From assembly GCA_009379955.1 (NCBI GenBank), contig WHST01000049.1, positions 1-42,812 on the forward strand: a DNA stretch of 42,812 nucleotides. Direction: 5' to 3'. Below the pieces are notes generated by a model that made no database searches, was not told where the DNA came from, and saw only the letters and a program-made list of their open reading frames with translations. The translations under genes were made by a program, and so were the position numbers. Shown piece by piece: positions 40,176 to 42,812 of this stretch. Source of the stretch: Streptosporangiales bacterium (GTDB lineage Bacteria > Actinomycetota > Actinomycetes > Streptosporangiales > WHST01). Numbering within the stretch: position 1 is the first letter of the stretch; each line of letters starts with the position of its first letter.

Positions 40176-40760
40176 ATGTCGGCGACACGACTGCTGGTGC
40201 TGGGCGTCGTCCGCGTGCGCGGCGAGGCACACGGCTACCAGGTACGCCGCGACCTGCGCAGCTGGGCCGCGGACAGCTGGGCCAACGTCCAGCCGGGATC
40301 GGTGTACCACGCACTGAAGAAGCTCGCCCGCGACGGGCTGCTGACCGACGCGGGCACCGCGGAGCCGGCGGCCGGTCCCGAGCGGGCCGTCTACCGGATC
40401 ACGCCGGACGGCGAGACCGAGTTCTTCGCGCTGCTCGCCGAGGCCCTCAGCCGCCCGGACCGCGGCGTCGACGGCCTCAGCGCCGGGGTCACCTTCCTCA
40501 CCACCCTCCCCCGCGCCGACGCGGTCGCCCTGCTCAACCACCGCCTCGTGGCGCTCGAAGGCGACCTGGCGAGTGCGAAGCACATGGTCGACACGTGGTC
40601 CACCATGGGCAAGCCGGAGCACGTCACCGAGCTGGCCCGACTCTGGAGCATCGCCGGCGAGGGCGACATCCGCTGGACCAGGGATCTCGTCGCCCGCCTC
40701 GAGGACGGTGCGTACGTGATGGCGGACGACGGCGCCGGATTCGGCCACCCGCCGACCTGA
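40176..40760 (+). CDS. PadR-family transcriptional regulator
   Basis: A 194-residue winged-helix repressor. The N-terminal domain (about 1-85) has LLVLGVVRVRGEAHGYQVRRDL, VQPGSVYHALKKLARDGLL and the wing VYRITPDGE, all typical of PadR. The C-terminal half is helical (dimerisation, Vir-like). The ATG has GAGG at eight bases and also a GAGGAT hexamer. It probably represses the DrrAB-type exporter directly downstream by binding the paired TTGGTCAAACTTGACTAG sites (40762-40836). Inducing ligands of such regulators are often the exported drug or phenolic. Confidence 0.93.
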   Translation: MSATRLLVLGVVRVRGEAHGYQVRRDLRSWAADSWANVQPGSVYHALKKLARDGLLTDAGTAEPAAGPERAVYRITPDGETEFFALLAEALSRPDRGVDGLSAGVTFLTTLPRADAVALLNHRLVALEGDLASAKHMVDTWSTMGKPEHVTELARLWSIAGEGDIRWTRDLVARLEDGAYVMADDGAGFGHPPT

Positions 40761-40843: not shown

Positions 40844-41806
40844 GTGATCCACGCCCGGGCTCTCGCCCGCTCCTTCACCTCGCGGCGCCGCACCGTCGAG
40901 GCCGTCCGCGGCGTCGACCTCGACGTCGACACGGGCGAGCTCGTCGGCTTCCTCGGCCCGAACGGCGCCGGCAAGACGACCACGCTGCGCCTGCTGACCA
41001 CCGTGCTCAGCCCCACGGCGGGCACCGCGACCGTCGCCGGCCACGATCTCGTCCGCGACCCGGCAAGCGTGCGGCGGTCGATCGGCTACATCGCCCAGGG
41101 CAACGGCTGCGGTCTCGACCAGCGGGTCGACCACGAGCTCGTCCTCCAGGGCGAGCTCCACGGCCTGTCGCGGCACGAGGCCAGCCGGCACACCGCCGAG
41201 CTCCTCGCGCGGTTCGACCTGACCGAGGCGGCCGGTCGCGTCGCCGGCACCCTGTCCGGCGGGCAGCGACGTCGCGTGGACATCGCGATGGGCGTGCTGC
41301 ACCGCCCTCCCCTGGTCTTCCTCGACGAGCCGTCTGCGGGTCTCGACCCGCAGAGCAGGGGCAACCTGTGGGCGCACGTACGCGACCTGCGCGACACGTA
41401 CGGCACGACGGTGTTCCTCACCACCCACTACCTCGAGGAGGCCGACGAGCTGTGCGACCGGATCTTCGTGATCGACGACGGGCGGATCGTGGCGACGGGC
41501 ACGCCGAACGAGCTGAAGGCGGGTGTCTCAGGCGACCTGGTGAGCGTCGACGTCGACCGGCCCGACCTCGCCGTCGCAGTCGCCGCGGCACTGCCAGGGA
41601 CCACCGACGTCGAGCCCGCCGGGCAGCGCGTGACGTTCCGCGTGCCACGGGGCGACACCGCCCTCCCGCTCCTCCTGCGCGACCTCAACCGCGCCGGCGT
41701 CACGGTCTCGTCGGTCCAGACGCATCGGCCGACGCTCGACGACGTCTTCCTCACCCTGACCGGCCGCAGCCTGCGCGAACCCGACGGCGCGGCGGCCGCA
41801 GCCTAG
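40844..41806 (+). CDS. DrrA-type ABC exporter ATPase
   Basis: A 320-residue ATP-binding protein of the daunorubicin-resistance (DrrA) family. Walker A is GPNGAGKTT (38-46), the signature LSGGQRRRVD, Walker B LVFLDEPSAGLD, and the H-loop TTHYLEEAD. The C-terminal ~90 residues (DUF4162-like) follow. It starts with GTG after GGAGGG, inside the right operator arm. The permease begins 11 bases after the stop. It probably drives efflux of a hydrophobic drug-like compound. Confidence 0.94.
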   Translation: MIHARALARSFTSRRRTVEAVRGVDLDVDTGELVGFLGPNGAGKTTTLRLLTTVLSPTAGTATVAGHDLVRDPASVRRSIGYIAQGNGCGLDQRVDHELVLQGELHGLSRHEASRHTAELLARFDLTEAAGRVAGTLSGGQRRRVDIAMGVLHRPPLVFLDEPSAGLDPQSRGNLWAHVRDLRDTYGTTVFLTTHYLEEADELCDRIFVIDDGRIVATGTPNELKAGVSGDLVSVDVDRPDLAVAVAAALPGTTDVEPAGQRVTFRVPRGDTALPLLLRDLNRAGVTVSSVQTHRPTLDDVFLTLTGRSLREPDGAAAAA

Positions 41807-41816
41807 AGAGGTCACC

Positions 41817-42569
41817 GTGACCGCACTCCGCCACACCCGGCTCATCTTCGTCCGCTCGATCCGCCCGACCCTGCGCAGCCCTTCGACCCTGCTGTTCGGC
41901 GTCGCCCAACCGGTGCTCTACCTCGCCCTCTTCGGACCACTGCTCGCCGACGTCGGCGGACCGGGCGGCGCGACCTCCTGGCAGTGGTTCGTCCCCGGCC
42001 TGCTGGTCCAGCTCGTCCTCTTCACCACCGCGTACGCCGGCTTCTCGCTCATCCCCGACCAGCGGTCAGGCGCCCAGGAACGGCTCCGGGCGACGCCCGT
42101 GAGCCGCCTCGCCCTCCTGCTCGGCCGCGTGCTGTCGAACGTGGTCATGCTCGTGGCGCAGGCGGTTCTCCTCGTCCTCCCGGCACTGGCCTTCGGATTC
42201 CGCGTGCCGCTCGCTGCGGCCCTGCTAGGCCTGCTGCTCTTGGCGGCGCTGGGCGTCGCGATCGGCGCGGCGTCGTACGCCCTGGCGACACACCTGCGCA
42301 ACGAGTACGAGTTCGCGCCCGCACTCGGCTCGACGGTCGTACCGCTGATGCTGCTCTCGGGGATCCTGCTGCCGATGGACGCCGGCCCGCGCTGGCTCTA
42401 CGTCGTCTCGCGGTTCAACCCGCTGAGTCACGTCGTCGACGCCGAGCGCGCGCTGACGCTCGGCCGGTACGGCGCGGGCGCCGTGATGGTGGGGGCGCTC
42501 GTCACCGCAGGCCTCGTCGTCGTCTGCACGGCATGGGGCGTCCGAGCCTTCCGCCGCTCCCCGGCCTAG
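41817..42569 (+). CDS. DrrB-type ABC exporter permease
   Basis: A 250-residue ABC-2 membrane protein with about six spans. VAQPVLYLALFGPLL, PGLLVQLVLFTTAYAG, RLRATPVSRLALLLGRVLSN and PLMLLSGILLPMDAGP (the last the conserved ABC-2 region) are typical. GTG follows GAGAGG. It forms the exporter with the ATPase upstream. Its end is 9 bases from the stop of the convergent HNH fragment. Confidence 0.93.
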   Translation: MTALRHTRLIFVRSIRPTLRSPSTLLFGVAQPVLYLALFGPLLADVGGPGGATSWQWFVPGLLVQLVLFTTAYAGFSLIPDQRSGAQERLRATPVSRLALLLGRVLSNVVMLVAQAVLLVLPALAFGFRVPLAAALLGLLLLAALGVAIGAASYALATHLRNEYEFAPALGSTVVPLMLLSGILLPMDAGPRWLYVVSRFNPLSHVVDAERALTLGRYGAGAVMVGALVTAGLVVVCTAWGVRAFRRSPA

Positions 42570-42578
42570 GGTCCTGCC

Positions 42579-42701
42579 TCAGGTGTCGCCATAATCGTGG
42601 GGTTGTTGGGTGTAGTGCCGTCCAGCGGGTGTGGTCCAGGTGACGGTGCCGTCGGGGTGGGCTTTCAGGGACCAGCCGGTGTTCTCGTCCTTGAGCCGGT
42701 G
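42579..42701 (-). pseudogene. C-terminal exon of a DUF222/HNH endonuclease, split by a group II intron
   Basis: Forty codons and a stop on the minus strand give HRLKDENTGWSL, then DGTVTWTTPAGRHYTQQP. This is the usual end of actinobacterial DUF222 (13E12-type) HNH endonucleases, in which HHRLK or similar belongs to the HNH motif and GW...TWTTPAGR follows. The reading frame stays open into the intron but the intron sequence begins at about 42702. The upstream exon would be beyond the window. The gene may still be functional if the intron splices; otherwise it is broken. It is convergent with the DrrB gene. Confidence 0.75.
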
Positions 42702-42812
42702 GTGAGTCGGCGGCGGGAGTTGCACCCGCCGCCGCTCGTAGAACCGTGCGTGACACTCTCGCGTCACACGGCTCCCGTCGTCGAGCCGCTGGGGAGTGCA
42801 CCGTGTTGCCAG
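42702..42812 (-). mobile_element. 3' end of a group II intron
   Basis: Reading the minus strand from the window edge, the sequence shows a domain V (42774-42741) followed by a domain VI. Domain VI has a 10-bp helix (42734-42725 with 42717-42708), a seven-base loop, then an unpaired A (complement of 42707) and a 3-bp helix GAG/CTC (42737-42735 with 42706-42704). The bulged A is the expected branch point. The intron should end in AC at 42702 (or at 42699). The exon then continues the HNH frame. The maturase/reverse transcriptase gene would be outside the window. Confidence 0.85.
42741..42774 (-). ncRNA. Group II intron domain V
   Basis: The 34 bases begin GAGCCGT and end ACGGTTC, which pair over 7 bp including one G-U. 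The inner helix GTGACGC/GTGTCAC closes a GAGA tetraloop (GNRA), and a two-base GC bulge sits on the 3' side. The catalytic AGC triad is in GAGCC. Size and every structural element match the domain V consensus, the most conserved part of group II ribozymes. Confidence 0.9.

Follow-up and report, generated by a model that had tools for sequence, protein, structure and literature searches.

The window (the whole stretch of 42,812 nt analyzed here) corresponds to the entire contig C49 in a draft genome of 225 contigs. A group II intron occupies its right-hand end: the last 112 bases (42701–42812), read on the minus strand, carry the intron 3′ terminus, and the remainder lies past the contig edge; the assignment is based on the RF00029 covariance model, 14 identical copies in the genome, empty sites, and the boundary of a relative. 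The presence of the intron in many copies explains why the contig breaks at this point. RF00029 (Intron_gpII) matches 42776–42701 over model positions 1–77 of 77, scoring 54.1 bits (gathering threshold 40; E = 5e-8), and so recovers the domain V that had originally been predicted, from sequence alone, at 42741–42774. By model and fold, the domain V hairpin (42739–42776, in the model region ahead of domain VI) has a GAGA tetraloop and a 2-nt bulge, and domain VI with the intron 3′ end (42701–42738) has a single bulged A at 42707, the seventh base from the intron end and the predicted branch point, much as the original prediction described it. The fold of the two domains together has a z-score of −6.0, and none of 200 shuffled sequences folded equally well.

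Overlapping domain V on the same strand (42764–42811) are the last 15 codons and stop codon of an intron-encoded reverse transcriptase (RT)/maturase, WQHGALPSGSTTGAV, matched by the ends of complete RTs from Amycolatopsis vastitatis (HWRHGALPAGSTTGAV) and Streptosporangium (HWRHGALPTGSTTGAV). Downstream of the intron, the 3′ exon (42579–42700, minus strand) encodes the last 40 residues and the stop codon of a DUF222-HNH protein, the first residue being a His whose codon is split C|AC; its 122 bases align locally to an intact paralog tail on contig C187 with z = 33. Convergent with this gene, and ending 10 bases from its stop codon, are two plus-strand frames (40844–42569) that by eye resemble an ABC transporter ATPase and an ABC-2 permease, and a PadR-like frame is found at 40176–40760.

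The same intron 3′ end is present at 13 other contig ends, which gives the draft genome at least 14 copies. Twelve of the 14 include the full RF00029 domain; the other two, on C160 and C209, begin within domain VI. All are identical over the intron bases they share (38 to 141 bases each); 3′ exons within a subfamily, in contrast, show as many as 20 differences in 108 bases, and the downstream DNA is different at each copy. Thirteen run into DUF222-HNH tails, all open in frame, of three divergent subfamilies (HRLKDENTGW, HRWKDDD, and HRLIHREHW, the third recognized by reading C-termini), and one, on C53, joins an unrelated frame that by eye looks like the start of an aldo/keto reductase. The DUF222 domain itself (PF02720) is found at 24 places in this genome.

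Upstream of the window's sequence, the intron had been expected to have a GUGYG boundary preceded by a DUF222 exon, as well as domains I–IV and an RT/maturase frame. The 5′ end, GTGTGTCCTGAAG…, beginning with GTGTG, was located at six intact junctions and one relic. The six are identical over their shared bases and each follows a different exon: five follow DUF222 exons ending in C-x-R-H-C, on other contigs than the window, and the sixth, on C67, follows unrelated DNA ending in GCATC. This C67 junction and the C53 one may be the two sides of a single off-target insertion; a search of genus relatives for the undisturbed site gave no match across the C67/C53 join. Domains I–IV are represented by a match of RF01999 (group-II-D1D4-2) to the 5′ half, partial because the contig stops there. 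The 5′ and 3′ halves of single copies are not physically linked in the assembly, where all are at contig ends, and searches of it for the intron body and RT (by RVT_1, by the DNA of one complete relative, and from the 5′ end) did not find them, so that for the RT this genome supplies only the final residues. The two RTs present, on C50 and C180, were considered and rejected as belonging to this intron, as both adjoin different RF00029 introns; these other group II introns (C50:2404–3647 and C180:128–994) have RT frames and a longer domain V–VI segment of 99 bases.

A few copies are irregular. On C12 (locus L013) and C205 (L020), one ACC triplet is missing right after the intron, the exon starting with GGATG rather than ACCGG; empty paralogs with GGATG keep the triplet, and the spliced product of these two copies would be one His shorter. 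The relic (C76:30425–30608, locus L076) retains 72 bases from the intron start, one of them mismatched; the remainder is lost, the 72 bases are joined directly to a 3′ exon a few codons in, and the gene is broken. Neither the triplet loss nor the relic affects the main conclusion. On C185 (1–260, locus L084), a DUF222 3′ exon is joined upstream to other sequence that is neither the intron nor an intact HNH exon.

The insertion point can be read from uninterrupted paralogs. Those on C54, C187, C17, and C28 carry two His codons there and read CACC^ACCGG, placing the intron 3′ end (…CTCACC) at 42701 and the insertion within the second His codon of CxRHH, after its first base (C^AC). A relative in Streptosporangium sp. 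NBC_01495 lies antisense inside an IS3 transposase, and deleting GTGTG…CTCACC from this locus restores the transposase sequence SALDNAAAESFF exactly; the intron therefore ends in CC, not AC. The end in AC given by the original prediction is thus one base short. It was tried and rejected, since it breaks the frame and loses the pairing with related sites described below. The same prediction had the exon resuming at the H-R-L-K of the HNH motif: this is indeed the His codon concerned, although the exon resumes inside it rather than at its start. The usual 3′ AY consensus does not hold here, the intron ending in ACC, as do those relatives whose boundaries are fixed; in group II introns, AY is a majority rule and not a condition of membership (PMC4424553). 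Splicing would yield R-H-H-R and with it the last His along with the downstream part of the HNH motif. From the family pattern, this second His is presumably the metal-binding His of HNH.

Complete relatives show what the missing body may look like. A pattern scan of GTDB species genomes yielded 20 loci; at five of them the same codon of a DUF222 tail is interrupted, namely at two loci of Pseudonocardia OFTM178 and at single loci of A. vastitatis, A. decaplanina, and the Pseudonocardiaceae genome Dino_bin20. A survey of 390 genomes of the A. vastitatis family added another genome (G567), with a 5′-truncated intron at the same codon, and one of 347 genomes of the window's own order found strong relatives, none of them recognized in DUF222 outside this genome. 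The tails at the related loci score z = 4 to 14 against the best intact DUF222 tail, compared to less than 2 for two control stretches. In A. vastitatis, the 5′ exon, a 1853-nt intron, and the 3′ exon are all on one contig (316 kb). The intron has a full RF01999 match and supplies the complete RT/maturase at the same codon, a 442-aa protein with RVT_1 and GIIM domains (TIGR04416 at 401 bits) in which no endonuclease domain was found. When spliced in silico, the DUF222-HNH frame is open for 439 aa, with PF02720 and PF01844. In Dino_bin20, approximately nine DUF222 codons are left upstream of the intron. Introns at the DUF222 site are set apart from the other introns by a split with a local support of 0.94. 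One further locus (L079:4908–5671) has a 764-nt group II intron with D1D4-2 and domain V matches and apparently no room for a complete RT.

Comparison of eight related introns, representing four kinds of site, suggests how the codon is found. EBS1 forms the loop on a conserved stem around base 265 (AACCRGGG…TCCYGGGA), and pairs with the last six exon bases (IBS1): GGTGGT with ACCACC in A. vastitatis; GGTGGA with ACCACC in Dino_bin20, with five of six bases paired; CAATGC with GCATTG or GCGTTG in four plasmid introns; and GAGATT with GATCTC and GACCAG with CTGGTC in the other two. EBS3 is a single alignment column whose base pairs in all eight introns, once by G-U, with IBS3, the base that opens the 3′ exon. 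Covariation of both EBS1 and EBS3 with the sites of insertion means that the target is chosen by base pairing. Recognition by EBS1-IBS1 together with EBS3-IBS3 is of the kind used by IIB introns. A search for EBS2 by eye gave no convincing result. For the intron of this genome, where the equivalent loop is outside the assembly, EBS1 is predicted to be GGTGTC. The four introns sharing EBS1 CAATGC and matching GC[A/G]TTG sites (L077, L134, L135, and L136) are on actinobacterial plasmids, at least one of them antisense in an IS3 transposase, which suggests a second site-specialized lineage.

Taken together, these observations very probably reflect a mobile group II intron lineage specialized on the HNH His codon of DUF222 genes and recently amplified in this genome by retrohoming. 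In the mechanism we propose, the intron RNA would use EBS1 to recognize the end of the upstream exon (the R/H-H codons, …CACC) and EBS3 to recognize the base that opens the downstream exon, reverse-splice into the site, and then be copied by its own endonuclease-less RT. Recent retrohoming of this kind would have placed the intron in no fewer than 13 DUF222 paralogs and at about one off-target site, and splicing at the RNA level would be expected to restore the full-length HNH protein. For this genome we infer splicing, the retrohoming route, and an RT and matching EBS1 within the intron body; by analogy to RmInt1, retrohoming would presumably proceed without an endonuclease domain. That the DUF222-HNH protein is itself a homing or selfish nuclease is speculative.

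Alternatively, the intron might no longer splice, the insertions being knock-outs of dispensable genes. The intron body is unassembled, the relic on C76 has its intron body deleted and its frame broken, the intron ends in CC, C12 and C205 have lost a triplet, and truncated or inactive copies are frequent in bacteria (PMC4424553). The identity across copies nonetheless suggests that the intron was active recently, domains V and VI have canonical form, every DUF222 3′ exon remains in open frame, and in A. vastitatis both ORF and exons are intact, making loss of splicing unlikely.

Instead of retrohoming, gene conversion could have carried the intron from paralog to paralog, or genes already containing it could have been duplicated. 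In M. tuberculosis, DUF222/REP13E12 repeats are hotspots of gene conversion (PMC13061034). Flanks within one subfamily reach about 94% identity, and the C160 and C209 exons, differing at 1 of 108 bases, may represent a gene duplicate. Against this, the intron is found in divergent subfamilies with barely alignable exons (C49 vs. C134, for example) and at a non-DUF222 site (C67/C53) with only a short target match, and its identity ends exactly at the splice junctions. Retrohoming is favored because identical introns sit in diverged genes; conversion or duplication as the main route seems quite improbable, although conversion may have helped the intron spread within a subfamily. An assembly artefact, with one intron misjoined to many paralogs, is extremely unlikely: every copy is indeed at a draft contig end, but this is the expected placement for a real dispersed repeat, the DNA downstream of each end is unique, and in independent genomes the same lineage occupies this codon well within a contig, as on the 316-kb contig of A. 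vastitatis.

A further role for the RNA can be imagined. The excised intron of Ll.LtrB reportedly lowers the mRNA of its one relaxase gene. By analogy, excised intron RNA might act in trans on the whole DUF222 family, its EBS pairing with the HNH codons of paralog mRNAs and lowering them, so that the intron would set the dose of the family; we regard this as highly doubtful.

Bacterial group II introns are mostly located in other mobile DNA or between genes, and life in the catalytic codons of conserved genes is more familiar from inteins and group I introns. The present intron is a mobile element of a known kind whose DUF222 niche seems to be unreported: no paper connecting group II introns to DUF222 or 13E12 was found in the open-access literature. 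As a conserved and highly repeated chromosomal family, DUF222 offers the intron many homing sites per genome, and its occupation in several genera allows exon-binding sites to be tracked against a protein-coding motif. The system could also serve as a natural, RNA-guided means of retargeting in GC-rich actinobacteria, and could help to show what role DUF222-HNH genes play. More than one kind of mobile element seems to shelter in the family; a mycobacterial prophage uses a REP13E12 repeat as its site (PMC9317374).

Among the systems to which this intron can be compared are the plasmid introns of Streptosporangium, Rhodococcus, and Streptomyces, which belong to the same subfamily, have the same ends, and share about 72–73% full-length identity with the A. 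vastitatis intron, but differ in EBS1 (CAATGC) and IBS1 (GC[A/G]TTG). Ll.LtrB of Lactococcus lactis resides in a single relaxase gene on a plasmid and encodes a protein with an endonuclease domain, whereas the hosts here are many DUF222 genes and no such domain was found in the A. vastitatis protein. Common to both are a nuclease-like host gene and target recognition by base pairing (PMC6003770). High copy number is already known from Thermosynechococcus elongatus, in which group II introns are present in 28 copies, in families retargeted by EBS changes (PMC2882425). The likeness lies in one intron proliferating within a genome; the T. elongatus families have diverged to many sites, however, while the copies described here are identical and almost all on one DUF222 codon. 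RmInt1 of Sinorhizobium meliloti reportedly owes its multiple copies to a target that is itself a repeated insertion sequence. Its protein likewise has no endonuclease domain, and it is capable of site-specific retrohoming, using single-stranded DNA at replication forks (PMC5010178). The present intron differs from it in target, the HNH His codon of a chromosomal gene family, and in lying in sense orientation, such that splicing would restore the host protein.
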